This document shows, in pieces, positions 35,267-56,497 of a DNA stretch of 64,000 nucleotides. The notes under the pieces are model-generated. The model had not been told where the DNA came from and did no database searches. It saw only the letters and a program-made list of their open reading frames with translations. This DNA is from Planotetraspora sp. A-T 1434 (GTDB lineage Bacteria; Actinomycetota; Actinomycetes; Streptosporangiales; Streptosporangiaceae): assembly GCF_025420585.1 (NCBI RefSeq), contig NZ_JAOEGB010000024.1, forward strand, positions 62,001 to 126,000, given 5' to 3'. Positions within the stretch are counted from its first letter, which is position 1, and every line of letters begins with the position of its first letter. The translations under genes were made by a program, and so were the position numbers.

Positions 35267-35325
35267 GGCCCCTGCCGGAAACCGGGTGTGTACTCACTCG
35301 TAGGATCATGCAGAATTAGGCACGA

Positions 35326-35365
35326 GCGCCCTTAGCTCAGCCGGATAGAGCATGGAACTTCTAAT
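35326..35365 (+). pseudogene. 5' fragment of tRNA-Arg(UCU); left island boundary
   Basis: Identical to the first 28 nt of the intact tRNA-Arg at 42190 (acceptor 5' strand, D arm), then an altered anticodon arm that keeps ACTTCTAA at 35357-35364. After that the sequence diverges completely, so the T arm and 3' acceptor strand are missing. This is the signature of an attachment-site junction or a remnant tRNA, and it marks the left end of the island. Confidence 0.75.
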
Positions 35366-35492
35366 TCTTCAGACCTTCAGATGGTGTGCGGCAACCCCAT
35401 CGTCGCAGCTAGACCGCACGTTCCCCGTGTCGGTGTAGGTAATCCGATGCTCTTTCGTCGCAGCAGCTCAGCGGCGCCGAGGACGGAACATT

Positions 35493-35941
35493 ATGTCCAT
35501 TCGTCCCGTTTCGCGCCCCGCCGAATCCGACCCCCCCCGCCACGCCTTCAACGCCGCCGCGCACGCGCCGGGACCGCGTCACCGACGTCTGCCGAGCTCG
35601 CCGCGAACCTCGCCCGGTTCTTCAACCGCCTCGAAGACCACATGGCCGACGACCCGGCCAACCTCGTACTCGCCGACGAGCTCACCGCCTACCTCCGCGA
35701 CTGCAAGCTCCGCGCGATCGCCCGCGCCGCCCGGGCGGCCGACGAAGGCGGCGACTACACCCTGGGCGACATCATCCGGATCCTCGGCATCACCAAGCAG
35801 TCCGTGCACGAGCTGATGCGCAAGGGCCAGGCGCTGCTCGCCGCCAAGCGGGCCAGGCCCGGGGTGGCCGACCTCCGCGAGCGCCGCCGCCGACGGCTCG
35901 ACGAAGCGGGCATCGGCGAGCGGCGTGAGGCCGCCCGGTGA
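35493..35941 (+). CDS. Small HTH protein, probably frameshifted
   Basis: The well-placed start (ATG at 35493, GAGGA 9 nt upstream) opens a frame beginning MSIRPVSRPAESDPP. That frame ends in unlike sequence, while a different frame from about 35540 encodes a convincing product (TSAELAANLARFFNRLEDH ... TLGDIIRILGITKQSVHELM ... RERRRRRLDEAGIGERR) to the TGA at 35941. The two join if one C is added in the run of eight C at 35531-35538. It could be a sequencing error, a real mutation or slippage. Predicted 148-150 aa with a helix-turn-helix near residues 90-115; function unknown. Confidence 0.5.
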
Positions 35942-35953
35942 CGCTGCTGGGCA

Positions 35954-36433
35954 TCAGCCCTCGCGGCTTGCCCCCTCTGGCCACACTACGGTGACGGGCA
36001 AGCCTCGGCGTCGCGCCTCGGCCACCACATCGGCGGTCCCCGACCGGCCCCCTGGCTGCCCATCCCACACCGCGACCAGCTTGTCGACGCTGCCCAGCAC
36101 GGCTTCGTTGGCCGACTCGTACGCGTCGCGATTGGCGTGAGGGTGGTCCATCACCCGCACCTGTGAGGCCCGGGAGACGAGCGCGTCGAACTGGTCAGCA
36201 TGATCTGACTTGACCTTCGCCTCTCGGTAGTCCTGCGACGGAATAACGACCTCCAGGGCGCCGCCGACCGAGAGAACCGCCTCGGCGAACACCGAATCCG
36301 CGCCCCGAGCAATGCAGGACACACCCACGAGTCGCTCGTCCACCTGCTCACGCAGGAGATCGCACAGGGCGTCGAACACAAGCCGCTGCGTGCCGTTGGT
36401 GATGTTGGTGTGGCCGGTGACGCCGATACGCAT
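35954..36433 (-). CDS. SLOG-superfamily (Rossmann-like) protein
   Basis: 159 aa. It starts MRIGVTGHTNITNGTQRLV, followed by GVSCIARGADSVFAEAVL, EVVIPSQDYREAKVKSD and LVAVWDGQPGGRSGTADVV. The GVTGH, ARGAD and WDG-x-x-GG-x-GT-x-D set is that of SLOG/DprA-LOG-like proteins, which bind nucleotides or nucleotide-derived ligands. GAGAGGGA precedes the ATG. It follows a TPR gene by 21 bp on the same strand. In many bacteria SLOG genes belong to conflict or signalling systems; that role is inference here. Confidence 0.72.
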   Translation of the reverse strand: MRIGVTGHTNITNGTQRLVFDALCDLLREQVDERLVGVSCIARGADSVFAEAVLSVGGALEVVIPSQDYREAKVKSDHADQFDALVSRASQVRVMDHPHANRDAYESANEAVLGSVDKLVAVWDGQPGGRSGTADVVAEARRRGLPVTVVWPEGASREG

Positions 36434-36454
36434 AATGTCCCTCTCGAATCGGGG

Positions 36455-37036
36455 TCAGTTTGCCGTAGCTGCCTGCAGCCGCGCCCGGAGGTCAGCGACT
36501 CCCGCCGTCGGCCGTTCGGCCAGAGCCTGGTCCAGGTGACGCAGCTGAGCTCGCACACGGTCGGATGTAACCCGCCCGGCCGCGGCCGCCGCAGCGCCCC
36601 CCGCGATCACGGCGGCGTCGACGTTACCCCGGATCATGTGAGCATGTACCAGCCCGGTGTAGTCCAGAGCGAGACTTCGACCGGCAGAGCGGCCCCGCAG
36701 GTCGATGGCACGCTGGATGTAGGTCACGGCCTCGTCGGCGAACCGGGCGTCGTTCCGGGCCAGGTCGAGGTACCGGCCGCCGGTGACTCCCGCCAGTTCG
36801 GCCTCGTCGAAAGAACCGCCCTCGTCGTCACTGGCCCCGGCGAGCGCCTCTTCGGCGGTTCCGGTAGCGCGGCGAAACGCTTCGACGCGGCCAAGCCCTG
36901 CGTAGGCCCAGGCTTCACGGGTGTGGAGCATGGCGCACAGGCGCCCAGCCCCGCTGGCGCGGGTGCCGTCGAGGGCCAGCCGCACCAGTTCGAGAGCATC
37001 CCGAGGCTGGTCGAGGTACAGCAGTTGCCGCGCCAT
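36455..37036 (-). CDS. TPR-type protein, probably N-terminally truncated regulator
   Basis: 193 aa, all helical, composed of TPR-like pairs (LDQPRDALELVRLALDGT, MLHTREAWAYAGLGRVEAFRRA, IQRAIDLRGRSAGRSLALDYTGLVHAHMIRGN). It resembles the C-terminal TPR half of actinomycete XRE-TPR regulators, but no HTH domain is present and an in-frame TGA stands directly before the ATG at 37036. Either the gene has lost its N-terminus or this is a stand-alone TPR subunit. It is followed by the SLOG gene. Confidence 0.6.
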   Translation of the reverse strand: MARQLLYLDQPRDALELVRLALDGTRASGAGRLCAMLHTREAWAYAGLGRVEAFRRATGTAEEALAGASDDEGGSFDEAELAGVTGGRYLDLARNDARFADEAVTYIQRAIDLRGRSAGRSLALDYTGLVHAHMIRGNVDAAVIAGGAAAAAAGRVTSDRVRAQLRHLDQALAERPTAGVADLRARLQAATAN

Positions 37037-37201
37037 TCATGACCATGAACGGGCGCGACGGTATGGCAGGCTCCCAGGCCCCACGCTGTCGCGCCTCCAA
37101 GTCGCGCGTCCCGGACCTGGGGGGACCTGGGAAGTGCGCGCGGCGGCGGCAGGATCGCGCGTCGTTCCTGCCGCCGCCCACGGAGAAAACTGAGGCGGAC
37201 C

Positions 37202-37405
37202 GTGGCCACGTGGGATGACCTCGTGCACGAGGCTGGCCGCGCTCTGGCCGCAGGAAAGCCGCACGAGTTCCAGATCACGGGCCAGGTCGCAGAGCTGGCC
37301 AACAAGTTCAACATCCCGGTCGACACGCTGCGGGTCATCCTCCTTACCGAGGCGTTCGCCTTGTACATCGCTGAGGTGCGCCGAAGCATGGTGATCCGCC
37401 CCTGA
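37202..37405 (+). CDS. Small protein of unknown function, 67 aa
   Basis: Starts at GTG 37202 with GAGGCGG just upstream. The product (MATWDDLVHEAGRALAAGKP ... ELANKFNIPVDTLRVILLTE) is soluble, helical and well composed, resembling small helical island proteins. No motif recognised. It is divergent from the TPR/SLOG pair, with 165 bp between them. Confidence 0.5.
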   Translation: MATWDDLVHEAGRALAAGKPHEFQITGQVAELANKFNIPVDTLRVILLTEAFALYIAEVRRSMVIRP

Positions 37406-37619
37406 GCTGCCCGGCCGGTTGTCCTCGTTGGCCAACATGCGACCGGCCGGGCTGGGCCGCCTCCTGTACGCCGTGGGGGCTGGTGGGAGGCGGCCCCCTG
37501 AAGCTGCTCGCCTGCCGCGGATGGTCCCCCGTCCCCGCGGCAGGCGGGCCACCAGACCGGCCCCGAGGTAGCGCGCCCAGCTAGGGGCCACGAGTGCCCC
37601 TGGAGGTGGCACGTGCAAG

Positions 37620-38808
37620 AAGATGCTCGCCGCCGCGCTGCAGGCGGAGGTCGACGCCTATATCGCCGCTTTCGCCGGAGAGCGTGACGAGGCCGGCCGC
37701 CGCCTGGTCGTCCGCAATGGCTACCACCAGCCCCGCGAGATCCTCACTGCGGCCGGTGCGATCGAGGTCAAGGCCCCTCGGGTCAACGACAAGCGCATCG
37801 ACGAGGCCACCGGTGAGCGCAAGCGGTTCTCCTCGGCGATCCTGCCCGCAAGACGCCCCAGCTCACCGAGGTGCTGCCGCTGCTGTACCTGCACGGCCTG
37901 TCCTCCGGCGACTTCGTTCCCGCGGTGGGGCAGTTCCTCGGCTCGAGCTCGGGCCTGTCCGCCTCGGTGATCACCCGTCTCACCGAGCAGTGGAAGGGCG
38001 AGCAGCGCACCTTCGCCGCCCGTGACCTGTCGACCGTGGACTACGTCTACCTGTGGGTCGACGGCATCCACGTCAACATCCGGCTGGAGGAGCACAAGGT
38101 GTGCCTGCTGGTGATGATCGGCGTACGCGCCGACGGCCGCAAGGAACTGCTCGCGCTGACGGACGGCTACCGCGAGTCCACGGAGTCGTGGGCCGGCCTG
38201 CGCGACTGCAAACGACGTGGGATGAGGGCGCCGGTGCTGGCCATCGGGGACGGCGCGCTCGGCTTCTGGGCCGCGCTGGGAGAGGTGTTTCCGCAGACCA
38301 GGGCCCAAAAGTGCTGGTTTCACAAGATTTCTAACGTCCTGGGGTCGATGCCGAAGTCGGCGCACCCGGGCGCCAAGAAGGCGCTGGCGGAGATCTGGAA
38401 CGCTGAGGACAAGGACCATGCCCTGGCCGCGGTGCAGGACTTTCAGGCCGCCTACGGCGCCAAGTACGTCAAGGCCGTCGCCAAGGTGGTCGACGACCTG
38501 GACGAACTGCTGGCCTTCTACGACTATCCGGCCGAGCACTGGGTGCATCTGCGTACGACCAACCCCCATCGAGTCCACCTTCGCCACCGTCCGGCACCGG
38601 ACCAAGGTCCCCAAGGGGCCCGGCTCACGCGCGGCCGGGCTCGCGATGGCCTTCAAGCTGATCGAGTCGGCCCAGGCCCGCTGGCGCGCGGTAAACGCGC
38701 CCCATTCTCGTCGCCTTGGTCCGCGCCGGAGCGACGTTCGTCAAGGGCAGGCTCGTCGATCGGCCCGAGGAATCACCCGCCGTCGAGGACCGCTCCATAG
38801 CCGCCTAA
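37620..38808 (+). pseudogene. Decayed IS256-family transposase
   Basis: Three frames read in order reconstruct a mutator/IS256-type transposase: KMLAAALQAEVDAYI... to about 37855, then LPLLYLHGLSSGDFVPAVGQ, LSTVDYVYLWVDGIHVNIRL (catalytic DDE Asp region), VLAIGDGALGFWAAL (second Asp), QKCWFHKISNVL, to about 38565, then IESTFATVRHRTKV with the catalytic Glu, and LVALVRAGATFVKGRLVDRP after a further frameshift near 38705. At least three indels and a missing N-terminus make it inactive. No terminal inverted repeats were identified. Confidence 0.85.
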
Positions 38809-38953
38809 AGATATTGATCCACAGGTCTTGACGATTGATCGGCATACCACTTTCATTCATCAACGATTCATGTGATGGTGATCACGCGACTATCAAAAGG
38901 CTTCATCTCATAGTCGGTAATTTCCCGTTCCCAATCGGAGAAAAGGAGAGTGC

Positions 38954-39550
38954 ATGCGCTACCCTGTCCGCATCGGTATCGTGGCTGTGATGCTGGTGAC
39001 CGCGATCACAACCGCCTTAGCGCCGCCCACTTGGGCCGATCCCGGATTTGTCGATGGGCCGCCTGATGGCGGTCAGCACAACTGGTGCCTCAGTGCCAGC
39101 GTCAGTCAAGCCCTCATCGCCCCCATACAAGCGTCCATGAGCTACTTGGACTCAGCATCGGACGTCAACGGCGTACCCCAGCACGTACCATGCCGACTCT
39201 CAGGCGGAAGCCAGACAGACGTCGTCTGGAAGGGATCATTGTTGGACCCAGGGGACATCGGATGGACGGGTTGCGAGTCCTGGTGGTCTGACCTCGCATC
39301 GTGCGACCGATACGGGGTTTACCTCGACAAGAACCAGATCGATTACTACGCCCTTTATCCCGCCAACGAATACAGGCATACCGCTTGCCATGAACTCGGG
39401 CACTCCGCAGGACTGTCCCACTACGTGAATGGGGACGAGCCTGGCGGGGTCAAGGACTGCATGATGAGCGGAGTGTGGGACGGCGGGCAGAGCTGGACGC
39501 GGACCTACGATCCCCACCACATCACATCCCACCTCAACGCCTACTTCTAA
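38954..39550 (+). CDS. Secreted metzincin-like zinc metalloprotease
   Basis: 198 aa. Signal peptide MRYPVRIGIVAVMLVTAITT with cleavage likely after WA near residue 28. The zinc-site motif HELGHSAGLSH (HExxHxxGxxH) is at about residues 145-155, and CMMSG some 20 residues later could be the Met-turn. Several cysteines suggest disulfides. GGAGAAAAGGAG lies directly upstream of the ATG. GC content is lower than in the surrounding genes. It is followed at 17 bp by a lipoprotein gene, probably in the same operon. Subfamily (snapalysin-like versus other metzincins) is unclear. Confidence 0.78.
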   Translation: MRYPVRIGIVAVMLVTAITTALAPPTWADPGFVDGPPDGGQHNWCLSASVSQALIAPIQASMSYLDSASDVNGVPQHVPCRLSGGSQTDVVWKGSLLDPGDIGWTGCESWWSDLASCDRYGVYLDKNQIDYYALYPANEYRHTACHELGHSAGLSHYVNGDEPGGVKDCMMSGVWDGGQSWTRTYDPHHITSHLNAYF

Positions 39551-39567
39551 AGGAGGTGCGAAGCGCA

Positions 39568-40290
39568 ATGAGGAAGATCCGCGTTTTTCTTGTTCTCGCC
39601 ACAGCAACCGCTAGCTTCACGCTGGCAGGATGCGGCACCGACGGGGCTGTGACTCAGAGCCAGAGCTCTCTTCAAAGGGAGATTGATATCTCTGTCTTGC
39701 GAGTCGGCCACTACAACTACATCCCTTTCGACACCCCAGAGAAGCTGGCGACCAGTAAGGTTACGCAAGTGGTTGCCCAGGGCGAGGTGGCCGGATTCGC
39801 CGCCGGCCGAACGATCGTAGGTGCGGACCCAAACGACAAGCGTTACTACGTCGTCATGGATGTCAAAGTGACGAGGAAGCTCAAGGGAGTGGTCGGCACT
39901 CCTGCCGATCAAACCGGGCACGTCTACGTCGAGCTTTTCCGTGGGCCGGTCTGTAATGACACAATGCAACCCTGCCGATCGATCGACGACTTCAACCGCG
40001 CTATCCCTAGCGGGACCAAGATTCTTCTATTCGGCAACGACGGATCAACTCCCTTCGCAGTTGACGCGAACGGACACAGCGAGGGCGACGACGCCGGTCG
40101 CCCGAAGGGATCTCCCCTTCTGCGTCCCTATCCTCAGGGGCTACTGTTGGAGCAGACCACTGCCAGCGGCAAGGAAGTGCTAGGCGGACTAGAGGAAGAC
40201 ATCCCGAAGGGATGGCTCACTCCCTCCATCACAAAGACGGGTCTCGACGCCATCGCCGATCGCGTAGCTGCTGCTGGATTTAACGGTTAG
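39568..40290 (+). CDS. Lipoprotein of unknown function
   Basis: 240 aa. Signal peptide with lipobox (FTLAGCGTDG; Cys near residue 22), so it is membrane-anchored and extracytoplasmic. The mature part is beta-rich (VAQGEVAGFAAGR, YYVVMDVKVTRKLKG, VYVELFRGPVCNDTM), resembling a small secreted OB- or Ig-like domain; not recognised. AGGAGGTG is 9 nt before the ATG. It follows the metalloprotease gene by 17 bp and is followed by a strong hairpin, so the two form one transcription unit. Confidence 0.65.
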   Translation: MRKIRVFLVLATATASFTLAGCGTDGAVTQSQSSLQREIDISVLRVGHYNYIPFDTPEKLATSKVTQVVAQGEVAGFAAGRTIVGADPNDKRYYVVMDVKVTRKLKGVVGTPADQTGHVYVELFRGPVCNDTMQPCRSIDDFNRAIPSGTKILLFGNDGSTPFAVDANGHSEGDDAGRPKGSPLLRPYPQGLLLEQTTASGKEVLGGLEEDIPKGWLTPSITKTGLDAIADRVAAAGFNG

Positions 40291-40320
40291 CAATCAGCTG
40301 TACCAACGTATCCCTTAATA

Positions 40321-40352
40321 GGATGCCCCCGGGTTTCGGTGCGGGGGCATCC
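40321..40352 (+). terminator. Strong hairpin terminator after lipoprotein gene
   Basis: GGATGCCCCCG pairs with CGGGGGCATCC (11 bp) across a 10-nt loop, 30 bp after the lipoprotein stop codon. Confidence 0.75.
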
Positions 40353-40565
40353 TGGGGACGCATGTCAAGCCTGGCCCACCTCTTGCCAGGTGTTTCACGG
40401 AGCATCGATGCCTTCTCGGTCCTGCTTGCGTCCCAGCCCAAGCCCTCCTGATATGCGCCCTGAGCTGATGCCGATACTCGGCGACCTTTTCATCGGCCTT
40501 ACTGCGGGCGTCCTCATTGAGGGCGACCGCCGCACGCCGCTTGTAAGCATTCAGCAGTTTTGTGA

Positions 40566-41087
40566 CGCCTCGTCGACTGGGTCCGCCGGTACCTCGGCCA
40601 GCATCAGCTCGCAGCGGCGGCCACCGCGTCTCTCGCCGCAGCCACCACCATCTATGGCGCGACCCTCGCCGTCAGGGAAATCCCACTGAGCCAGCCGCCC
40701 GCAACCACGACCGTTACCGCCGCCTCGGCGGCGCCCCCGTCATCACCGCACGTTGGCCGCAACCAGATCAACCCGACTCAGCGACCGGCGCCGAAACCGT
40801 CAGAAGCGCAGCCGGACGCAACCACCGCGGACACAACCACCGCAGATGGCCACGACGAGGACCGCCGCGACGCTCCCAACCCGATGGCCAACCCCAGCCC
40901 GACACCGTCACGCATCGAACTCAAGGACGACCCGCCACGTCCCGTACGGCCGACGCCAACCCTGCCGCCTGCCGTCCCGTCCGACGCTCCGGCGCACCTG
41001 CCCACGGCTCTGCCTTCCCCGCTGGAGTCCGCGTGCCAGATCGAGATCGATCCGCTTACGAAGGTCAAGACGTGTCTCGGGGGGTGA
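40566..41087 (+). pseudogene. Fragment of a membrane/Pro-rich island protein
   Basis: A frame open from 40566 (after a TGA at 40563) to 41087 encodes a hydrophobic helix (ASLAAATTIYGATLA) and then a long Pro/Thr-rich extracellular-type tail ending LESACQIEIDPLTKVKTCLGG with two Cys. No start codon with a ribosome binding site is present in frame before the helix, so it looks like the 3' part of a broken gene; an ATG at 40884 would give only the tail. It converges on the integrase gene with a 5-bp gap. Confidence 0.35.
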
Positions 41088-41092
41088 TGTGG

Positions 41093-42094
41093 CTAGAGCC
41101 GGTCGCTGGGCGAGAGCCGAGCGTGGGCGTCCCTCGCCCGGCGCTGAGCCGTGGCCTGCGTGTAGCGGCGGACCATCTCCAGCGAGGTCCAGCCGCCCAC
41201 ATGCATCAGGTCGATGGGGTCGCCCCCGGCGTCCAGGAACGAGGTCGCCATGGTGGTGCGGAAGCGGTGGGTGTAGACCCCGGGGATACCGGCCTCCTTG
41301 GCGCGCCGCTTCAGCATCTGCAGGATGCCGGTCGTTGTCAGACGGCGGTCGCCCCCCGCCGCGGTGATGCCCCGCTCGGGCAACCACAGCCAGGGGGACT
41401 CGGCGTGCTTGTGCCGGGCCCGGGCGCGGATGTAGCGGTCGATGGCGGCCGCGGTCTTGCGTCCGATCGGTGCCATGTGCATCCGGCCGCCCTTGAGCCG
41501 AATCCGCAGGACGTGCTGAGATAGGAACACGTCGGTGAGCTCGTCGTCCTCGGGGTGGTAGCGCAAGCCGGCCAGGCCCGAGCCGCGCATGCCGTTGTCC
41601 AGGAGGACCCGCATGATGGCGGTGTCACGGCGGTCGATAAAGCTGGTGCCCTCGCAGGCCTTGAGCATGAGCTTGAGTTCGGTCTCGGTGAGGGGCTCGA
41701 CCGGCTGAGCGACGACGTTGGGCGGCGCGACGTTGGCCATCGGAGAGCGGCCGTCCAGTTCGCCGTCGGCGACCAGCCAGTTGAACATGACCCGCAGGTT
41801 GCGGAAGTGCTTGTGGCCGTCGCCCGCGCTGCGAGCCCGGGTGTCGCCACAGGGGCAGGGCTTGATGCGCTTGTCGTCGAGCCAGCAGCCGTACAGGCGG
41901 GCAGCCAGGAAGGCGCGGACGTGCTTGGCCTGGATCTTTTCGAGCTGCTCGGGCATGTCATGCTTGTCGAGGTAGGCGATCAGAAGTCGCGCGGAGTGGA
42001 GGTAGCTCGTGATCGTGCCAGCGGCGAGCTTCTCGCCTTCGAGGGCCAGCTTCCACGAGGGGATGAGCTCTCGCAGGAGTGGGGATCTACCCAT
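41093..42094 (-). CDS. Tyrosine site-specific integrase (left island)
   Basis: 333 aa. An N-terminal SAM-like core-binding domain (1-115) with a CPCGDTRARS zinc-ribbon-like insert near residue 80, then the catalytic domain: Arg in GMRGSGLAGLRYHPED, HRFRTTMATS (H-x-x-R), HVGGWTS (H/W), and the Tyr nucleophile in MVRRYTQAT. It lies 95 bp from the intact tRNA-Arg at the right edge of the left island segment and points away from it, a usual place for an integrase. It is likely responsible for, or a remnant of, insertion at the tRNA. Confidence 0.85.
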   Translation of the reverse strand: MGRSPLLRELIPSWKLALEGEKLAAGTITSYLHSARLLIAYLDKHDMPEQLEKIQAKHVRAFLAARLYGCWLDDKRIKPCPCGDTRARSAGDGHKHFRNLRVMFNWLVADGELDGRSPMANVAPPNVVAQPVEPLTETELKLMLKACEGTSFIDRRDTAIMRVLLDNGMRGSGLAGLRYHPEDDELTDVFLSQHVLRIRLKGGRMHMAPIGRKTAAAIDRYIRARARHKHAESPWLWLPERGITAAGGDRRLTTTGILQMLKRRAKEAGIPGVYTHRFRTTMATSFLDAGGDPIDLMHVGGWTSLEMVRRYTQATAQRRARDAHARLSPSDRL

Positions 42095-42189
42095 GAGGGA
42101 AACTCCAAATCCGATGCTGTTTCATCGGTGTGCGGCTATGCTACCTTAGGCCAAGGTCAGCAAACCTGCTGGTCATCCCCCAATTTCTA

Positions 42190-42263
42190 GCGCCCTTAGC
42201 TCAGCCGGATAGAGCATCGGACTTCTAATCCGACGGTCGGGGGTTCGAATCCCTCAGGGCGCG
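42190..42263 (+). tRNA. tRNA-Arg (anticodon UCU)
   Basis: 74 nt. Acceptor GCGCCCT (42190-42196) pairs with AGGGCGC (42256-42262), D arm GCTC...GAGC, anticodon stem CGGAC/GTCCG-type with loop CTTCTAA giving anticodon TCT, T arm GGGGGTTCGAATCCCTC. 3' CCA is not encoded. All arms are intact, so it is the functional copy; two partial copies flank it at 35326 and 56423. Confidence 0.9.
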
Positions 42264-42296
42264 CTCACAATCATGCGATGACCTGCGATTTCTCGA
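42221..42296 (+). repeat. Central attachment-site-like direct repeat
   Basis: The 3' half of tRNA-Arg plus 33 bp beyond it (starting GCGCTCACAATCATGCGATG) recurs, with a few indels and substitutions, at 56423-56497, 14.2 kb away and in the same orientation. The repeat extends past the tRNA end, as for att sites of integrative elements. Confidence 0.75.
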
Positions 42297-42874
42297 TCGA
42301 GACGGACTCGCAGCGAGAAGTTGATCTCGTATGGTCGCTCGTTGTTTGCTCGCGTGTTCCGTCGAGCACCCAACCATCGGACTTCGGCATCGGATTCTTT
42401 CATGATCGGGCACGGGTTGGGCAGCCGGTAGATCGCTTAGAGCCGGTGCGTCAAACCGGACCCCGAAGACGGTCAACGGAAGATGAAAACCGAACACCTC
42501 CCAGGCTTCGCCCCCCTTCCACGGCACGCTGACCGTCAAGAACCCCCAAGGGGCACCCAGGCGAACAAGTAGGGCGAAAGGTGACAATCCGCGCCAGAAC
42601 TCGACAACCAGCGGACGAATAATCCGTAGGGCTGGTTCGACTACTCGACCCCCGTCAGGACATGTCTTTCCCACCGCTGGAGCACGCGGCCACCGCCATG
42701 TGGTTAAGCAACCGATCAGCTACCCTGCTGGGCGGGCCGGCGTTCGGGCATGACCCCAATGTAGGAACCAGTCAGGATCAGGAGGAGTCCAAGGACTGCC
42801 CACTCCGCTGGGTTCCTGAAACGAGGGTCAGGCAGTGACCACCGCAGCTCTGATAGCTGACAGCTCCCCGCCTC
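42264..42874. other. Region without a convincing gene
   Basis: Follows the tRNA. The first 33 bp repeat near 56.46 kb. The rest shows no ORF with family features; the open minus-strand frame across the tRNA encodes the typical antisense-tRNA artefact (ERALRDSNPRPS). Confidence 0.5.
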
Positions 42875-46606: not shown

Positions 46607-46612
46607 CCTGTC

Positions 46613-46852: not shown

Positions 46853-47094
46853 CGCCCACCCCCGCACGGGAGCGGGGCCGTCGCGACGGCGCGCAGGCGT
46901 GGCGTCGTTGCCGTGGCCCAGGCGGTCCAGCGGCCCCCACGTCGCCGCGCACGGGCGTGGCGGGGCGCGGGGACGCCGGTCGACCATGGCCGCCGGTATC
47001 GACGCCCATCTCTATGGTTCGCGTCAAGCAATATCCGCTGGTCAGGCATGCCGTGTCGCCGCCGGGCCCGTGCCGTCCTCACCGCGACCCCCGA

Positions 47095-47466: not shown

Positions 47467-47468
47467 GG

Positions 47469-48293: not shown

Positions 48294-48870
48294 GATGGTG
48301 TGGCCCGGTCACCCCGGCCACCTGATCCCTGTCACTCATTCAAATACCTGCGTAGGGATGCCTGTTGGGACAACGTCGCTCGAAGACGCGTGCACATCAG
48401 TACTGTTGCGGTGTCCCCAGGAGGCCGTCAGAAGGGCGTCGGCGGCAGTATGCGCGTCAGGTACGGTGTCCGCAATTGAGCGGACGGTGTGCGTCAGGTG
48501 TCAGGCGGTCGTCTTACACCGGCCGGGCGCGCGTTCGGGAAGGGGCGCGACGGTACGGGGCAGTCGGCGAAGTCCTGCGCGGACTTAGGGAGCTGGAGAC
48601 CTCGCCACCAGGGCCCGTGGGCAATGGTCCGGCGCCGTCGGCTGAGAGCGTCGTCCGGCCCGCGTTGAGGCGCAACCGTACGGCCGGAGAGCCTGCTCAA
48701 GGGCATGGTGAAAGGGGCAGGCTGTCAACCGCGCTGGAGCTGGTGCCCGGGCCACTCGTGGGGCGTTCGGAGGGCAGGTGCGCTGGATGCTCGCACGCCG
48801 ACTCGACAGGCCCACCCGTATCCCTGCCTGTCGGCACATCACCTGTGAAAGGTGCCGGCCCGCAGAATGG
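48294..48870. other. Region without a convincing gene
   Basis: About 580 bp between the methylase pair and the tetR gene. ORFs on both strands are short and of biased composition. No terminator or repeat of note. Confidence 0.5.
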
Positions 48871-49458
48871 TCAATGCCGGGACAACTGCTTGAGGGCGGC
48901 CTGGCTTATCTGCAGCAGAGCTGAGCCGTCCATGTCGGTCTTCGCGAGAAACTCGATGCCCTGCATGACGCCAAGGAGCAGTCGCCCGAGCTCCTGGGCG
49001 TCCGCGCTCGGTTCGACCGTCCCCTCGTCCTGGGCTTCCTTCACGCAGGCGATCAGAAGATCTTCGACCGCTTGATAGCTGGTCCGCGCCCGGGAGACGA
49101 CATCCGGATCATTGCTGTGCAGCTCGGACGTGCTGTTGACTAGAAGACAGCCGCGCCGCTGCGGGTCCTCCATGAATCCCTTGGCCACTCCCTCAACCAG
49201 CAGGGTCAGGCGTTCGAAGGCCGTACCGGGGCCGGTGAGGACCGCCCGGACTCCGTTCAGCTGTTCGTCGCGGTAGCCGTCCAGCACGTGCAAGAACAGC
49301 TGCCGCTTGTCGCCGAAGGCCCCGTATAGGCTCCCCTTGCCCAGTCCCGTGGCGTCCGTCAGGTCCTGCAGTGACGTAGCCGCGTAGCCCTGATTCCAGA
49401 ACTGCTCGCGCGCAGATTTCAGTACCTGGTTCTCGTCGAAATTCCGCGGTCGTCCCAT
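48871..49458 (-). CDS. TetR-family repressor
   Basis: 195 aa: HTH at residues 1-50 (MGRPRNFDENQVLKSAREQF ... ATSLQDLTDATGLGKGSLYGAFGDK) and a C-terminal ligand domain with the TetR_C_6-type RRGCLLVNSTSEL block. ATG at 49456-49458 fits the family start. It is divergent from an SDR gene; a GACC-N4-GGTC site lies in its own promoter and a near-identical one ahead of the SDR gene, so it most likely represses both. Confidence 0.88.
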   Translation of the reverse strand: MGRPRNFDENQVLKSAREQFWNQGYAATSLQDLTDATGLGKGSLYGAFGDKRQLFLHVLDGYRDEQLNGVRAVLTGPGTAFERLTLLVEGVAKGFMEDPQRRGCLLVNSTSELHSNDPDVVSRARTSYQAVEDLLIACVKEAQDEGTVEPSADAQELGRLLLGVMQGIEFLAKTDMDGSALLQISQAALKQLSRH

Positions 49459-49481
49459 GTTCAACAGCATACGTTGTTCTT

Positions 49482-49493
49482 GACCTATCGGTC
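49482..49493. promoter_or_regulatory. TetR operator, tetR side
   Basis: GACCTATCGGTC, a perfect GACC-N4-GGTC inverted repeat, 24 bp upstream of the tetR start codon. Operators of this TetR group often have this shape. Confidence 0.55.
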
Positions 49494-49754
49494 CAGATTA
49501 TGAGGTCCCATCCCGGCCGTAGGGAGCGCAGGGAGGGCCGGGCGGCCTCTCCGTCATCGCCACACAGGGCGGCAGACCGCGCGATGGCGGGGGTGCGTGA
49601 TGCATGGCTCCCGGTCGGAGCCTTTCGCGGCGCCCCTCGCGGACGGGCCGGCGTCGGCCAGCCTGTCGCTGCTCGGAGGTGTGGATGCAGTCACGTTTTT
49701 GTCCGTGCGGTCCACAACGTGGTTCTTTACCGTATAGTCCATAACCGGGCCTGG

Positions 49755-49766
49755 GACCGTCCGGTT
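49755..49766. promoter_or_regulatory. TetR operator, SDR side
   Basis: GACCGTCCGGTT fits GACC-N4-GGTC with one mismatch, 70 bp upstream of the SDR start. It pairs with the site at 49482. Confidence 0.4.
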
Positions 49767-49836
49767 CGGACTGTAATGCGGTAGTGACACTTGGTGCACG
49801 TCTTCTGGCGTTCGCACCAGACAGGAGTAAACGATC

Positions 49837-50586
49837 ATGGGACAGCTTGACGGGAAGACGGCAGTCGTCACCGGAGGCAACAGCGGAATCGGACTGGCCA
49901 CCGCCAAGCGATTCGCACGTGAGGGCGCGCACGTGTTCATCACGGGCCGCCGGCAGAAGGCTCTCGACGCCGCGCTGGTCGAGATCGGTGGGGAAGCCAC
50001 CGCTGTCCGGGGCGACGTCGCAAACCTCGCGGACATCGACCGCCTCTACGCGGCTGTCGCCGAGCAAGGCCGGTCCATCGACGTACTGTTCGCCAACGCG
50101 GGCGGCGGTGAGTTCGCCCCTCTTCAGCAGGTCACCGAGGAGCACTTCGACGCCACCTTCAACATCAACGTGCGAGGCATGCTCTTCACAGTTCAGAAGG
50201 CCATTCCGCTGCTCAATGACGGCGCCTCGGTGATCCTGACCGGATCGACTGCCGCCACCTCAGGCGGCGCCGCCTTCGGCGTGTACGCCGCGTCCAAGGC
50301 CGCGGTCCGTTCCTTCTCCCGCACCTGGGCCAACGAACTCAGCGGCCGCGCGATCCGAGTGAATACCCTGGTGCCCGGCCCGATCGTCACCCCGGGCATC
50401 ACCGGCCTGGCTGCGGACGCCGACCAGGCCGCGAAGATGAGGGACGTCTTTGCCAGCCAGATTCCGCTGGGCCGGATGGGGCACCCGGACGAGGCCGCAG
50501 CTGCCGCACTGTTCCTCGCCAGCAATGAGAGCAGCTTCGTCACCGGATCCGAGCTGTTCGTAGATGGCGGACTCAACCAGATCTGA
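49837..50586 (+). CDS. Short-chain dehydrogenase/reductase
   Basis: 249 aa classical SDR: cofactor motif TGGNSGIG at 13-20, NAGGGE, Ser in LTGSTAA (near 137), and catalytic YAASK near 153. PGPIVTPG and GSELFVDGGLNQI complete the family pattern. Good AGGAG ahead of the ATG. It faces the tetR gene and is probably de-repressed by the TetR ligand. Substrate unknown; such TetR/SDR pairs detoxify carbonyl compounds or quinones in several bacteria. Confidence 0.9.
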   Translation: MGQLDGKTAVVTGGNSGIGLATAKRFAREGAHVFITGRRQKALDAALVEIGGEATAVRGDVANLADIDRLYAAVAEQGRSIDVLFANAGGGEFAPLQQVTEEHFDATFNINVRGMLFTVQKAIPLLNDGASVILTGSTAATSGGAAFGVYAASKAAVRSFSRTWANELSGRAIRVNTLVPGPIVTPGITGLAADADQAAKMRDVFASQIPLGRMGHPDEAAAAALFLASNESSFVTGSELFVDGGLNQI

Positions 50587-51212
50587 TTGAAGCCATACAG
50601 CCGGCGGAAGCGGCAGAAGACACGAGGCCTTCCCCCGGCAGGGCCCCACAAGGCACGAATCACCCCGAGCCCCTCCGCCGCTGCGGGAAGGACCCGTCAC
50701 CGACGCTCTTGCCCATGGTGACGGCTAGCAGTCCGCCGCTGCGCCCATGGCAAAGACGCCTGCTTCTGAGCACCGGCACCGGCGTAAGCAACATGAGTGG
50801 GGCCCGGTCGTTAGCGGCCGGACCCCACTCCTATGGTGCCGTGCGCGTCAGATCACCACCGCTACCCTCCTCCGCGGCCGTCGCCCACGCCCGTGCAGAG
50901 CGTGACGAACCCGAGCAGCCACAGCACCAGGATGGCGGGCGCCACCCGCCAAAGGGACTTGACGGCGAACCCGCACCGAACGGGACGCGTGAGAAAGCAG
51001 AACGAGCAGCAGGGAAGCCATGGTTGTCGACGTCGTGTGCCGTGGCCTGCCCTGCTGCAGCTCCTTCAGCCCGTAGCCCGCTGAACCGAACCAGAGGATG
51101 TCGAGCTGCTCAGCCGGATCTGCACGGCGGCCGGCGACGCCGGGTTCGGGTCCGACGCCGGCCTGCCCTCCACGACCGGCGGCCAGCGCGCAGCACGGCA
51201 TCCGACGGGAGG
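50587..51212. other. Region without a convincing gene
   Basis: About 600 bp. Apart from the hairpin at 50797-50828 I find no supported gene; ORFs on both strands have poor composition. Confidence 0.45.
50797..50828. terminator. Large stem-loop terminator
   Basis: GTGGGGCCCGGTCG and CGGCCGGACCCCAC form a 14-bp stem with one mismatch and one GU pair around a TTAG loop, 210 bp past the SDR gene. Suited to terminate transcription from either side. Confidence 0.6.
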
Positions 51213-51865
51213 GCCTTGCTACTACAGCGCAAGGTCAGTGAGGACCAGCACGCGCTCGTAGGTGTAATCCATCATGGCGTCGACGCCCTGGACGCCGGCG
51301 CGCTGCGGCGGGTCCAGGACGCCGACCGCGCCCGGGACGAGGCGCTGGCCGAACGCGACGCCGCCCTCGCCGGCCAGGAGACGGCCGAGACCGCCCGCCG
51401 CCGAGCCCTGGGCAACGAGCGCGAGGCCGCCGAGGCCCGCCGGCGCGCCGAGCGCGTCGCGGCCGCGGCCGCCGATAACGAACGGCGGGCGCTGGCCGAG
51501 GCCGGAGCCTTCCGGGCGCGGGCCGCAGCCGCCGAGACAGCCGCCGACCAGGCCCGCGAACGGCTCACCGAAAAAACCGAGGAGTTCGAGCGGGAGCTCG
51601 CCCACGCCCGCGCCGAACTGGAGACCGAACGGGCCCGGACCGAAACGCTGCGCGCCGAGCTCGCCCAGCAGCAACGCGCCCTCGCTGAGGCGCGCGAAGA
51701 GCGCGCAGCGGAGCGGACCGCGCCGAGGGCCTGGGCCAGGAGCTGGCGGCCGCCCGCACCGCACAGCTGGCCGAGACCGCCGCCGCCCTCGAGCGCGCCG
51801 AACAGGCGCTGGCCGAGGAGCGGCGCGCGGCCGCCGACCGGATTGCCGTGGCGGCCAGCCCATGA
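51213..51865 (+). pseudogene. Frameshifted coiled-coil (KfrA-like) protein fragment
   Basis: A long Ala/Glu/Arg heptad coiled coil (ALRRVQDADRARDEALAERD, FERELAHARAELETERARTE) in one frame from about 51213 to 51715, continuing in another (GLGQELAAARTAQLAETAAA) to the TGA at 51863-51865. The N-terminal DNA-binding part expected of KfrA-type plasmid proteins is missing. Neither a start codon with a ribosome binding site nor an intact frame is seen. Confidence 0.55.
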
Positions 51866-52308
51866 CAACCGACACCGTCGAAAAGCTTCGCCTACACAGC
51901 CTTCACAACGTGACGATTACCGTCAGTGACCTCGACGCGTCGATCCAGTGGTGGAACCGGGTGTTCGGCCTCACCCTGCTGGCGAAGTCCCGCTTCGACG
52001 CCATCGGAGCCGACGTCGCATTCCTGGAGGGCCCCGGATTCCGGCTCGAACTCCTTCAGTCTGCAGACGGCGTGCGGATCCCCGAACTGACGGCAGAGCC
52101 CCCCGCCCACATCCGCCCGATCGGCAACAAGGCCCTGGTCTTCCACGTCGAGGACCTCGCCAGCGTGACCCGCACCTTCCGTGACCTGGGCGTGCCGACC
52201 GTCTGGGAGCAGATGGACCTCGGCGACGGCAGCATCTCGACCGCGATCCGTGACAACGACGGAAATCTCATCAACGTCTTCCAGCAGGTCGCAAGCCCGA
52301 TCGGCTGA
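51862..52308 (+). CDS. VOC-superfamily glyoxalase-like protein
   Basis: 148 aa, single vicinal-oxygen-chelate module repeated twice in the fold (LHSLHNVTITVSDLDASIQW, DVAFLEGPGFRLELLQ, KALVFHVEDLASVTRTFRDL, IRDNDGNLINVFQQV). Metal ligands His near 16 and Glu near 64 or 137 are plausible. The ATG overlaps the TGA of the coiled-coil fragment (ATGA). Possible roles are isomerase, dioxygenase or resistance protein; the substrate is unknown. Confidence 0.85.
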   Translation: MTTDTVEKLRLHSLHNVTITVSDLDASIQWWNRVFGLTLLAKSRFDAIGADVAFLEGPGFRLELLQSADGVRIPELTAEPPAHIRPIGNKALVFHVEDLASVTRTFRDLGVPTVWEQMDLGDGSISTAIRDNDGNLINVFQQVASPIG

Positions 52309-52670
52309 CACGGCGAACCGATCGCGCTCCGTCCATCCAGCCGGCACAGGACCGGACACTCACTGTGGAGACGGCGCGCGATCGCCCTGGCCGCCGAGCC
52401 AGGTTCAGCCGCTCCGAACGCGGCTGTCCGGGACGCGGTTCGGGAGCGCCGCCGGACCGATGCCTGACAGGCGGGGAAGTGGCCCGTCTCGTAAGGTGGT
52501 CCAAGACGACGCCGCGGTCGCTTGCACGGTCAGGAGAAGCCAGGGTTACGCCACCCCAGGAACTCCCGGGCACGGTCACCCACCCGCCCTGAACATCACC
52601 GCTGGCGGCGGGCGGTAGTCTGACAATCACCCGTCGTACTGCTCGTTCTGTGGCACGGGGAGGACAGAGT

Positions 52671-54143
52671 ATGGGATCCGACATTGACGTGCTGGTCGTC
52701 GGTGCTGGTCCAGCGGGGTTGCTGCTCGCAGGTGATCTGGCCGAGGCCGGAGTGCGCTGCACCGTCGTGGAACGGCGGGAAGGGGAATCCGAGCTGACAC
52801 GTGCATTCGCCGTCCACGCCCGAACGATGGAGCAACTGGACGCCCGCGGCCTGGCCGACGACCTGCTGCTGACCGGCCTGCGCAACCCGATCCTGCAATT
52901 CCTGCGGATCGATCTCTCGCACCTGCCGACCCGATACCCCCACGTACTCGTGACGCCCCAGTACAACACCGAGCGACTGCTCCTGGCTCGCGCCCTGACA
53001 CACGGCGTGAACATCATGCGGGCCCACGAAGTCACCGGCGTCCAGCAAGACCCCGCCGGTGTCGACGTCACCGTGAAGACACCAGCCGGCACTGAACACA
53101 ACCTGCGCGCGGACTACGTCGTCGGCGCAGACGGACGGAACAGCTGCGTGCGCCAGTCCCTCGGCCTCCCGTTCCCCGGCCGCTCCGCCGTTCGCTCCAT
53201 GATGCTCGCAGACGTCCGCATGGCCGAACCGCCAAAGAAGCCGCCCACCGTGGCAGCAATCGGAGACGCCTTCGCCATCGTCGTCCCGTTCGGCGACGGC
53301 TGGTTCAGGGTCATGGCCTGGAATCGCCACCACCCCATGCCCGACACCGCATCGGTCGACCTGGAAGAAATCAAAGACGTCGCCCGCCAGGCGCTCGGCA
53401 GCGACTTCGGCATGCACGACCCCCGCTGGCTCTCCCGATTCCACAGCGACGAACGCCAGTCACCCCACTACCGAGTCGGCCGAGTGTTCCTCGTCGGCGA
53501 CGCCGCCCACGTCCACTCCCCCGCCGGCGGCATGGGCCTCAACACCAGCATCCAGGACTCCGCAAACCTGAGCTGGAAACTCGCAGCCGTTCATCGCGGC
53601 CGCGCACCAGACACTCTGCTCGACAGCTACCAGAACGAACGGCACCCGGTAGGTCACCGGGTTCTGCGGATGAGCGGCGCACTGCTCCGCGGCGTCCTCA
53701 CCACACCACGGGCACTGTGCGGCCTCCGTGACCTCTCAGCACGTACAGTGCTGCAAACCCCACCAGTGGCCCGCCGACTGGCCACAGCAATCTCGGGAAT
53801 CGACATCTCCTACGCCGCACCGGCCGGTGCACACCCTCTCGCCGGCAAGCGAGCACCTGACATCCCCCTCACCGACGGACGCAGACTCTACGAAGCCCTC
53901 CGCAAGCGACGGTTCATCCTTGTCACCCCGGCCGACACCGAACGCCTCCCCTCACTCATCACAGAGTGGGCCGGCGAGGTCGAAATCGTGTCACCCAAGG
54001 GGGCCACCAAGAAAAGCGTTCTGGTCAGACCAGACGCCTATATCGCGTGGGCCATCTCGGACGAGTCGCCTGAACGTCGCATCGACGCCGCCCGTCAAGC
54101 ACTGACCGAATGGTGCGGGGTAGCCGGGTCTGGCGGGCAGTGA
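52671..54143 (+). CDS. FAD-dependent aromatic monooxygenase
   Basis: 490 aa, group A flavoprotein hydroxylase (PHBH fold): GAGPAGLLLAGDLAEAG (FAD dinucleotide motif), ADYVVGADGRNS (DG motif), GDAAHVHSPAGGMGLNTSIQ (GD motif binding the FAD ribityl). The C-terminal 110 residues resemble the thioredoxin-like domain of polyketide hydroxylases and rifampicin monooxygenases. The ATG at 52671 follows GGGGAGGA; an upstream GTG at 52650 is less likely. It may add hydroxyl groups to an aromatic or polyketide-type substrate. The 3' end overlaps antisense with the Tn3-associated ORF. Confidence 0.88.
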   Translation: MGSDIDVLVVGAGPAGLLLAGDLAEAGVRCTVVERREGESELTRAFAVHARTMEQLDARGLADDLLLTGLRNPILQFLRIDLSHLPTRYPHVLVTPQYNTERLLLARALTHGVNIMRAHEVTGVQQDPAGVDVTVKTPAGTEHNLRADYVVGADGRNSCVRQSLGLPFPGRSAVRSMMLADVRMAEPPKKPPTVAAIGDAFAIVVPFGDGWFRVMAWNRHHPMPDTASVDLEEIKDVARQALGSDFGMHDPRWLSRFHSDERQSPHYRVGRVFLVGDAAHVHSPAGGMGLNTSIQDSANLSWKLAAVHRGRAPDTLLDSYQNERHPVGHRVLRMSGALLRGVLTTPRALCGLRDLSARTVLQTPPVARRLATAISGIDISYAAPAGAHPLAGKRAPDIPLTDGRRLYEALRKRRFILVTPADTERLPSLITEWAGEVEIVSPKGATKKSVLVRPDAYIAWAISDESPERRIDAARQALTEWCGVAGSGGQ

Positions 54144-54331
54144 CGGGTCTTGGCTGCGGCGAACTCGGCCGCGATCGCCTGCTGCTCGGCTGCGGCGACC
54201 AGCACCCGGGTCAGGTGCACGGCCGTCAGCTCGGGCGGGGCGCCGGCGGCGCCGGTCACCGACCGGCCCAGCTGCGCCAGGATCGTGGTCAGCTCGGTGA
54301 CGCCGAGCGGTGGGGTCGCCTGTGCGGTCAT
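54095..54331 (-). CDS. Small ORF downstream of Tn3 transposase remnant
   Basis: 78 aa (MTAQATPPLGVTELTTILAQ..., Ala-rich, helical). The ATG follows the transposase stop by 7 bp, so it may be part of the transposon. The 3' end overlaps the flavin monooxygenase gene on the other strand by 49 bp, and its last residues (CPPDPATPHHS) look like read-through sequence. Function unknown. Confidence 0.4.
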   Translation of the reverse strand: MTAQATPPLGVTELTTILAQLGRSVTGAAGAPPELTAVHLTRVLVAAAEQQAIAAEFAAAKTRHCPPDPATPHHSVSA

Positions 54332-54338
54332 TGCCGTG

Positions 54339-55180
54339 TCAGTCTTCCTCGTCGTCGGGAGCATCAGGGTCGCGGAGCTCGCGGATGGCACCGGGTTCGA
54401 TGTCGGGCAGGGAACGAGTACGTCCCATGCACCCCCAGATGCTTGCGCACGAACGGGGACAGCCGTGCGGCGTCCTCCTCCCGTACCGGATAGTCCTGGG
54501 CCTTCAACTGCTCGATGGCGGCGTTCAGGTACACCGTGGTCCACAGCACGACGCAGTTGAGAACCAGGCCCAGGACACCGAGCTGGTTCTCAAGTCCGCG
54601 TTCGTAGTGGTGGAACAGCTCACCCTTCTTGCCGTGGCAGATGGCGCGGGCCAGGTCGTGGCGGCCTTCTTGGAGGTTGCGGATGTGCTTGATGTCGCGG
54701 CGGTAGGTCTCATCGACGTCGACGTAGGCCAGAATGTGGAGGGATTTGAAGATCCTGCCGTAGGCGGCCAGAGCCTCACCGAGGGCGGTGGGGTGTCCGT
54801 CGCGTTGCAGCATCGTCACCACGTCGTAGGCGCGGACGGTGCCGGTGTAGATCGAGGCGATCACCCGCAGGATGTCGCCCCAGTGCTTGCGGATGCGGGC
54901 CGGGTCGATCTTGCCGCGGGCGAAGGTGTTCAGCGGCCCGTAGTCAGCCTCAGCGTTGATCCGCCAGCCCTTCTGGTCGGGCAGGTCGGCCAGCGCGGGC
55001 CGGTAGGAGATCCCCAGCAATTCGAGGACCCCGAACACCAGGTCGCTGTACGAGCCGGTGTCGGACACCACGATCTGCGGAAGCTCCCCGCCGTCCAGCC
55101 CGAAGATCACATCGACCATGTGCAGGGAGTCGCGGACCGTGCCCGACACCACCTTGGCACCACCCGCACCGTCGCGCCCG
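54339..55180 (-). pseudogene. Tn3-family transposase, C-terminal remnant
   Basis: About 280 residues of the DDE_Tnp_Tn3 domain (VSGTVRDSLHMVDVIFGLDG, IVVSDTGSYSDLVFGVLELL, ADLPDQKGWRI, ASIYTGTVRAYDVVTMLQRD, LHILAYVDVDETYRRDIKHI). A 1-nt frameshift near 54430 separates the last part (PDIEPGAIRELRDPDAPDDE, stop at 54339). Full Tn3 transposases are about 1000 aa; the N-terminal two thirds are missing, so it is inactive. No terminal inverted repeat could be assigned. Confidence 0.85.
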
Positions 55181-55313
55181 GCCTGTCCGCGTGCGGAGCG
55201 TCACACACGCCATCAGGCCCACATAGCGGTCCTGCGCACCTGGGAGAAGGGCAGGCACCGCCCCCGTGCCCGCTGTCAGGGGAAGGCAGCGAACGGCACG
55301 GAGCCTCACAAGC

Positions 55314-55600
55314 TCATCGGTAGTAGTCAGCGGGAATGCCGGCTGGTTGGATCGGCGGGCCGGTCCTCTTGTCGGGCCATTCCGCATCGAAGACAGACAG
55401 GATCCCCATGAGTGCGGTTAGCCCGGCCCGAGGGACGCGGCCACCGCTCATCAATCCCTGGGGGTCGCGCTGCTCGCGCGTGACGATCTCCATCGTCACC
55501 CCCATCGTCCGGGCGGCCGTCAGTCTCGCGAACCGCGCGGGACTTACCGTCGGAAAGCTTTCGATGCCTCCGGCGGGGCTCAGGTTCCACGATGATCGCC
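55314..55600 (-). pseudogene. Unidentified gene 3' fragment
   Basis: A frame without start codon encodes ... WNLSPAGGIESFPTVSPARF ... GVTMEIVTREQRDPQGLMSG ... PPIQPAGIPADYYR and a stop at 55314. The composition is protein-like, but I do not recognise the family. It could be the tail of a gene cut by the Tn3 element. Confidence 0.25.
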
Positions 55601-55737
55601 CGCGCTCACGCCGAGACCGTAGGTGGTTGCGAAGCTGATCGTCCCGTCGCCATCGCCCCAGGACAAGCCGAGCAGACCAGGGCCCGCTTCCCCTTCGGGT
55701 GGGACGACGGCGACGGAAAGATCAGCATTCACCGCGC

Positions 55738-55791
55738 GTCATGCGCGCTTACCAGAGGCCGCGTGTCATGCGCGCTTACCAGAGGCCGCGT
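55738..55791. repeat. 27-bp tandem duplication
   Basis: Two exact adjacent copies (55738-55764 and 55765-55791) beginning GTCATGCGCGCTTACCAGAG. Apparently a recent slippage event in a non-coding stretch. Confidence 0.85.
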
Positions 55792-55807
55792 GTCACATCG
55801 CAGATAA

Positions 55808-56422
55808 GCCCCCAGAGCCCCCGAAGCGCCAAGATCCAGAGGATCACTTCCGGAAGCACTTCGTCCCTCATCTTGCGGTTCGCCGCAAGGACGGCCTCCC
55901 ACCTGGACGGTTCCTGACCCACGGCAATCACCCTTTCGTGATCGCCTCTTCAGGGAAGGTGGAGCTCCTCCCGCCAGTCGCTCTTTGGCGAGAAGGTGGC
56001 ACCCATCCGAGACAATCAGATCGGTGATCCCGAAGGATCGCATCCTTTCAAGGTGGTGTAACGTTCATGGGTTCTCCTGATCGGAGCCCAACCTTTGAAG
56101 CCAACCTCAGGTTAGCTCACTGGATGGCGGTCCGCGCAAAACAGAACCATTTCGTGCCCTTCCTCGTCGTTGCCGGCTCATAGTCCCCGAGCTTCGTCCC
56201 CGCCGCAGCGATCCGGAGAACGACGCGGGCTGACACCTCCGCCCGGGTTTGTACAGACAGGATCCGAGCTGCTGATGCGTTTAGGTTGTCGTTCAGTCAT
56301 CCACCGGGCAATACGCGTGTGACAAGATCCAAAATATGCCCGGAAGGATCTTGCTCCACCGAGCAAGCTGTCAGAAATCACCTGCAGGTCAGGATCACGC
56401 GCGAAGCAAGAGCGCAAAATCC
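55808..56422. other. Non-coding stretch before right island edge
   Basis: No supported gene in about 600 bp. ORFs here are short shadow frames. Sequence is somewhat less GC-rich than the surroundings. Confidence 0.5.
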
Positions 56423-56497
56423 ACTTCTAAAATCCGACGGTCGTTCGAATCCCTCAGGGCGCGCTCACGATCATGCCGATGACCTGTGGTTTCTCGA
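56423..56497 (+). pseudogene. 3' half tRNA-Arg remnant plus flank; right island boundary
   Basis: Matches positions 42221-42296: ACTTCTAA, then TCCGACGGTCG, GTTCGAATCCCTCAGGGCGC and the following GCGCTCAC-ATCATG-CGATGACCTG flank, with a 2-nt insertion (AA), a 3-nt deletion (GGG in the T arm) and a few substitutions. The D arm and 5' acceptor strand are absent. It marks the right end of the island. Confidence 0.75.

Follow-up and report, generated by a model that had tools for sequence, protein, structure and literature searches.

The DNA analysed here (the window) is a stretch of 64,000 nucleotides from Planotetraspora sp. A-T 1434 (contig NZ_JAOEGB010000024.1, positions 62,001 to 126,000; host genome G000, 7.8 Mb, 98% complete, 136 contigs), and it holds three copies or part-copies of a tRNA-Arg(UCU) gene, between which lie two segments of mobile DNA, named segment 1 and segment 2. 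The intact gene, rebuilt from a 5′ half given by segment 1 and a 3′ half given by segment 2, is located at 42190-42264 (+) and was called tRNA-Arg(TCT) by ARAGORN and tRNA by Rfam (72.1 bits). A displaced 5′ half ending with the anticodon loop forms the left junction of segment 1 (35326-35364, +), and a displaced 3′ half forms the right junction of segment 2 (56423-56464, +). All three pieces are in one orientation and are joined at the anticodon loop, and the outer two have only ACTTCTAA in common. When 42190-42300 was used as a query against the host genome, the right copy was matched at an E value of 7.1e-20 and the left copy at 3.5e-11, so that neither can be attributed to chance, and no second full-length TCT gene was found among the matches in this assembly.

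The three copies had been placed at these positions in an earlier reading of the letters (the sequence-only reading), with which ARAGORN, Rfam and the whole-genome search agree. The same reading held that the copies differ exactly as junctions should, and this was borne out for the layout of halves and whole gene and not for the details: two anticodon-stem bases of the left copy differ from the intact gene (CGGA to GGAA), and in the right copy two additional A directly follow the loop and four of the five G before the T loop are missing. The likeness of the right copy to the middle one extends about 34 bases beyond the tRNA end, reaching 56498. Owing to the two differing bases, the core of the left junction, GAA-CTTCTAA-TTC (35355-35367), is a perfect inverted repeat around the loop.

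Segment 1 (35365-42189, +) is a decayed element consisting of small open reading frames (ORFs), a fragment of a Mutator-family transposase (37871-38800) and the gene for a tyrosine integrase, Int1 (41093-42094, -; PF00589, E 1.6e-21), which is an uninterrupted frame of 333 amino acids with the tRNA 96 bp upstream. The near-end arm between Int1 and the tRNA (42095-42189, +) includes a TATGCTA box 53 bases before the tRNA, and the distal attachment arm (35365-35500, +) resembles the near end in 18 of 20 bases and has the stretch GGTGTGCGGC in common with it. Segment 2 (42265-56422, +) begins with a post-tRNA arm of a second type (42265-42360, +) and carries the gene for the tyrosine integrase Int2 (45050-46606, -; 518 amino acids; PF00589, E 7.7e-22), so that each segment has one such integrase, as had been supposed. 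Its cargo (48871-55152) comprises genes for a TetR regulator, a short-chain dehydrogenase/reductase, a glyoxalase-fold protein and a flavin adenine dinucleotide (FAD)-dependent aromatic hydroxylase, and a Tn3 transposase fragment.

Left boundary and the ancestral leader

The chromosome of a relative (G022) was colinear with the window (83% over 34282-35365), the Gfo/Idh gene being followed by one intact tRNA-Arg(TCT) gene. The intact gene has a conserved leader, close to GATCATGCACAATTAGGC, in front of it in six of the seven relatives examined (G022, G004, G005, G009, G012 and G015) but not in the seventh (G016). In the window, this leader (35303-35325, +) is read directly before the left fragment and not before the rebuilt gene; therefore, the left fragment is the original 5′ half of the host gene, and the native upstream region is missing from the rebuilt gene. 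The prediction that relatives lacking the insertions would read from the Gfo/Idh gene through one tRNA-Arg straight into the 56.5-kb sequence held on the left side (G022 and the five other relatives), and the join to the 56.5-kb sequence could not be shown.

In Microbispora amethystogenes (L215, 9603-10102), a tRNA-Arg(TCT) with the ancestral leader is accompanied, about 320 bp off, by only a C-terminal scrap of about 32 residues of an Int1-type integrase, and at the same locus Microbispora corallina has kept a whole Int1-type gene and the element-type upstream region.

Int1-type integrases at tRNA 5′ ends

By sequence, Int1 belongs to a clade that comes mainly from Streptosporangiaceae. Among 200 genomes of the family, counting that of the window, at least 47 gave matches at an E value of 1e-20 or better; this count, and likewise that for Int2 below, is a lower bound, with 10 or 7 candidates scored per genome. 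A tRNA gene (Arg-TCT, Arg-ACG or Met-CAT) was present at 26 of 30 Int1 loci, and in all 26 the sequence places its 5′ end facing the integrase N-terminus, 96-311 bp away. Two of the other four loci have, as judged by eye, a lone tRNA 5′ half (L096, Ala; L097, Lys), and the remaining two (L094 and L101) have none. A pattern scan of named genomes, many of them common to the 200-genome search, gave 33 Int1-type loci from Microbispora, Microtetraspora, Planobispora, Sphaerisporangium, Acrocarpospora, Nonomuraea, Herbidospora, Actinomadura and other genera. The tRNA 5′ end faces the match in 30 of these, including L215 with its integrase scrap, no tRNA was found in two, and the 3′ end faces the match in one, which is a 36%-identical integrase at a tRNA-Arg(TCT) of Streptomyces flavidovirens (L211), on the opposite side from the clade. 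Two Int1-type integrases lie about 36 kb apart in G021, one adjoining a lone tRNA-Lys 5′ half and the other an intact gene. Searches of phage and plasmid collections gave remote Int1 matches only, the best with 30% identity (Streptomyces phage Kromp).

Twenty weaker Int1 matches were also fetched, of which ten lie at tRNA 3′ ends, eight have no tRNA, and two face a tRNA 5′ end (L234, and L243 at 546 bp). In a tree of 62 integrases, a side was assigned only to those with a tRNA no more than 350 bp from the N-terminus, which gave 37 rows labelled 5′, 11 labelled 3′ and 14 unlabelled, the last including L243 and L201 (5′ end at 667 bp); L246 (212 amino acids) was left out. The side changes once in this tree, on a branch with support values of 96/94, and a single change was likewise obtained in 100% of 200 bootstrap trees; L234 falls inside the Int1 clade. 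The tree is unrooted, and the 3′ side would be ancestral, judging from its general prevalence.

Displaced 5′ halves were sought by whole-genome searches with the target tRNA and were found on the same contig, on the same strand and on the expected side at 9 of 28 loci, 16.9-106.5 kb away. These comprised 6 of 7 Arg-ACG loci (G013, G076, G121, G145, G187 and G212; 17-81 kb), 2 of 4 Met-CAT loci (G096, 106 kb; G197, 104 kb) and 1 of 17 Arg-TCT loci (G124, 55 kb); in G120 the displaced half lies on a separate short contig. Three genomes occur in two lists of displaced halves, with different loci. The junctions fall 38-43 bases into the tRNA, the halves ending at or just past the anticodon loop. 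The remnant in G124 is preceded by the ancestral leader, and those in G013 and G121 are preceded, as judged by eye, by another Int1-type arm, which may be a sign of tandem 5′-side insertions in these two genomes.

The near and far arms were more alike within elements than between elements (9 elements, permutation p 0.0099), G187 being left out as a near-copy of G212. Of 18 Arg-TCT near ends, 17 have a TATG[CA]TA box 52-54 bases ahead of the tRNA; the box is absent from all 7 Met or Arg-ACG near ends, and the TATGCTA box of the window is a putative replacement promoter of the rebuilt tRNA.

The phage attachment site (attP) with a lone tRNA 5′ half was seen directly in a 71.6-kb viral contig (L255), in which a clade-like integrase (51%) has a lone tRNA-Met 5′ half upstream and 7 of 10 ORFs searched, on both sides of this half, match phage families. 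Among the 30 of 40 viral loci examined, many of which start at the integrase and leave little to see, there were also one with a lone 5′ half (L264), two in which an intact tRNA has its 5′ end towards the integrase (L263 and L265) and one in which the 3′ end is on that side (L266). The 43-kb element of G212 encodes terminase, minor capsid, minor tail, CHAP lysin and Prim-Pol proteins (20 of 38 called ORFs searched), so the clade includes at least some temperate phages. Phage structural genes, present in this relative, were not found in segment 1, which probably came from a temperate phage and has since decayed.

Elsewhere in the host genome, the region upstream of a tRNA-Arg(ACG) gene (L012, G000:C13, 4398-4472, -) resembles Int1-type near ends by eye and is perhaps a relic of another 5′-side insertion; no integrase was detected near it by tblastn in the fetched stretch.

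Segment 2, the right flank and simulated excision

Int2, whose relatives served as the control family, was matched at an E value of 1e-60 in at least 60 of the 200 genomes. A tRNA is present in the fetched stretch at 11 of 30 Int2 loci, and each of these 11 tRNAs has its 3′ end towards the integrase C-terminus, at a distance of 261-1182 bp; the other 19, including the window's own locus (tRNA 2.8 kb off), have no tRNA in the stretch. The loci of the two families are at opposite tRNA ends, and the Int1 and Int2 families thus work on opposite sides. Elsewhere in the host genome, arms similar to that at 42265-42360 occur after a tRNA-Met gene and after lone tRNA-Met and tRNA-Lys 3′ halves. These traces are L003 and L006 (G000:C72) and L007 and L008 (G000:C57); one is the tRNA-Met gene, one a displaced 3′ half of tRNA-Met and two are displaced 3′ halves of tRNA-Lys, and each is followed by a similar GACCTGCGATTTCTCGA arm, L006 apart, which has a GAGGTT variant.

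An arm-like stretch past the displaced 3′ half (56465-56498, +) is a candidate trace of an older 3′-type element at the same tRNA. Neither the middle nor the right tRNA copy is followed by the sequence found after the tRNA in G022, and the first match of the right flank to a relative (G005) begins at about 63996; so an older 3′-type element probably preceded segment 2 here and would have replaced the host 3′ flank. The possibility that the right flank is direct ancestral DNA was set aside as unsupported, since about 31 kb of the G022 right flank had no colinear match in contig C55 when the comparison was extended from the window to the contig end; G022 may carry islands of its own. Two adjacent histidine-kinase genes (61643-63647) lie close to the presumed right-hand limit of the accreted DNA.

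Excision products were modelled by a script that joined the displaced halves to the present ones. Simulated loss of segment 1 gave two mismatched pairs in the five-pair anticodon stem, the product still being called tRNA-Arg(tct) by ARAGORN, and simulated loss of segment 2 gave a damaged gene that was no longer called tRNA-Arg. In other clade elements, all 8 simulated products were intact tRNAs of the right kind (G187 and G120 excluded). The displaced halves of the window have decayed, so that clean excision would leave a damaged tRNA, and from these simulated products both window segments may be trapped; present immobility is likely for segment 1. Displaced 3′ halves were also found downstream of tRNAs with Int1-type near ends in G054, G047, G187, G121 and M. 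corallina, so two-sided replacement is not confined to the window's genome.

Rebuilding of the tRNA gene and comparison with known systems

We conclude, with a probability of roughly 0.9, that the sole tRNA-Arg(UCU) gene found in the genome has been rebuilt from both sides at the anticodon loop by two mobile elements. The sequence-only reading had proposed two integrations that meet at this loop and leave an intact tRNA at the middle junction, and the present results support it; the two segments are not, though, the same kind of event. The two insertions, whose junctions are visible in the sequence, are mirror images, segment 1 replacing the 5′ half with the upstream region and segment 2 the 3′ half. 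Segment 1 gave the new 5′ half together with upstream DNA, so the rebuilt gene lost the ancestral leader.

The attP of the segment 1 element would have run from integrase through arm, tRNA 5′ half and anticodon loop to the distal arm. In a presumed catalytic event with a putative 7-base overlap, Int1 would have recombined the loop with the host gene and pushed the host leader and 5′ half far left (35303-35364), after which the rebuilt gene would start in element DNA and might be transcribed from an element promoter. The segment 2 element, of the classical kind, would have carried a 3′ half in its attP, and Int2, acting at the same loop, would have pushed the previous 3′ half rightward to 56423, an older 3′-type element having earlier replaced the host 3′ flank.

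Several observations weigh against this account or parts of it. The two stem changes of the left fragment are not explained by a clean loop crossover, no phage structural or transfer genes were recognisable among the ORFs searched in the small, degenerate segment 1, and for the promoter role of the TATGCTA box conservation is the one line of evidence. No displaced 5′ half was found at 16 of 17 Int1 loci at Arg-TCT, and of 15 loci compared, 9 have chromosomal flank as close as 1.5-5.8 kb to the tRNA. When a 64-base query of leader plus half was searched against 15 kb near solo integrases, 13 of 15 loci were not above shuffled controls; the other two (L103 and L110) were slightly above, the L103 match being 13 bases long and the L110 stretch (also in L109, L114 and L115) looking by eye like part of a coding gene. 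A 42-base query of the 5′ half was slightly above controls at 4 of 30 named loci (L185, L186, L189 and L190), none of them convincing. With flank so short at 9 of 15 loci and no convincing remnant, either the element has been cut down there or the account does not apply to these loci. L243, which is distantly related and falls outside the clade, has a tRNA 5′ end at 546 bp, past the 350-bp limit for labelling the tree.

The many relatives with an intact integrase beside the tRNA and no element-end remnant found are also what would be seen if Int1 were now a resident host gene, segment 1 its mere neighbourhood and nothing mobile today; the ratio of nonsynonymous to synonymous substitution rates in 7 Int1 pairs (0.07-0.40), which indicates constraint, fits this as well. 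Clade members are found, however, at Arg-TCT, Arg-ACG, Met, Ala and Lys tRNAs, so the Int1 family has moved, and prophage and attP forms exist; we consider this explanation unlikely. A single 21-kb tRNA-dependent element with a whole tRNA gene inside, a type documented in actinobacteriophages, would likewise leave outer fragments that are a 5′ half and a 3′ half with only the short common core, around an intact tRNA of the same isotype (the non-rebuilding phage cores given in Table 2 of PMC10865867 are 8-17 bp). This explanation was rejected and is given very little weight, because the two integrases look unrelated and each family keeps to a fixed tRNA side (26 of 26 and 11 of 11 tRNA-bearing loci), the middle copy has flanks of the Int2-type arms on its 3′ side and of the Int1-type near ends on its 5′ side, and G124 shows the same Int1-tRNA near end and a displaced 5′ half with no displaced 3′ half on that contig (weaker partial matches, 81-84% over 37-44 bases, lie on other contigs). 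That the side fragments are independent degenerate tRNA copies, produced by duplication or homologous recombination, is scarcely credible and was rejected: tRNA fragments do occur in genomes and the displaced halves have substitutions and indels, but each fragment stops at the anticodon loop, on the side where it should, the ancestral leader is still attached to the left one, and relatives show this architecture again at Met, Arg-ACG, Lys and Ala tRNAs.

Beyond the rebuilding of this one gene from two sides, we tentatively propose, at slightly less than even odds, that a clade of bacterial phage integrases switched once from the 3′ to the 5′ tRNA half, each insertion taking over the promoter of an essential tRNA, and that together with 3′-type elements these form a two-sided ratchet by which a whole tRNA gene is replaced by mobile DNA. 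Under such a ratchet the near end of the element would be indispensable and not cleanly lost, because the displaced host halves decay.

Crossover in the anticodon loop, which the sequence-only reading took to be uncommon, is not so by the counts of the Islander survey, where 2083 of 3919 islands are anticodon-centred; a 5′-half remnant is indeed the less common case there (159 of 3919, about 4%; PMC4383910). The 5′-fragment islands of that survey resemble segment 1 in having an intact tRNA gene, a displaced 5′ fragment upstream in the same orientation and an integrase between them, and segment 2 has the corresponding 3′ configuration, with the displaced 3′ fragment downstream in the same orientation and the integrase between. 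Islander gives these 5′ islands as a count, whereas here one integrase clade is tied to the side and a second, 3′-type element lies in the same loop.

Tandem elements in one tRNA-Arg gene with integrases of two subfamilies are known from Streptomyces avermitilis, where Sav3708 and Sav3728 are actinomycete integrative and conjugative elements (AICEs); what the survey says of this pair is silent on opposite sides, and it places the vast majority of tyrosine-integrase AICEs at tRNA 3′ ends (PMC3218068). Int, Rep and Tra, which an AICE combines in one element, do not occur together in segment 1, where no match to Rep or Tra families was obtained among the ORFs searched; decay could have removed them. 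In the tRNA-dependent lysogeny of actinobacteriophages, a short core also lies in a tRNA gene and the host also relies on element DNA, but as described no rebuilding of the tRNA takes place and it is complemented by a whole tRNA gene from the phage (PMC10865867), whereas here half a gene has been spliced in, the middle gene standing where the arms of both elements meet and the attP of L255 holding a lone 5′ half.

There is also a likeness to the archaeal pTN3-like integrases of Thermococcales, for which attB is a 5′ half and the rebuilt tRNA is parted from its original promoter (PMC8371274, PMC5495485). The pTN3 integrase gene is, by that account, disrupted by integration and its hosts are archaeal (PMC8371274), whereas Int1 genes are whole, with attP upstream, and occur in bacteria. 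The literature search brought up no description of bacterial integrases that form a clade specialised for tRNA 5′ halves, which is weak evidence of absence. Rebuilt bacterial tRNA genes are described as using their original promoter with very few exceptions, the 5′-half case being seldom met in bacteria (PMC8371274); the Int1 clade appears to be a whole integrase clade in which this exception is the norm. Empty sites, displaced halves, attP forms and a prophage are all available for it, and it opens to testing how an integrase changes the tRNA half that it captures, how an essential tRNA is controlled after capture, and whether capture locks elements in place.

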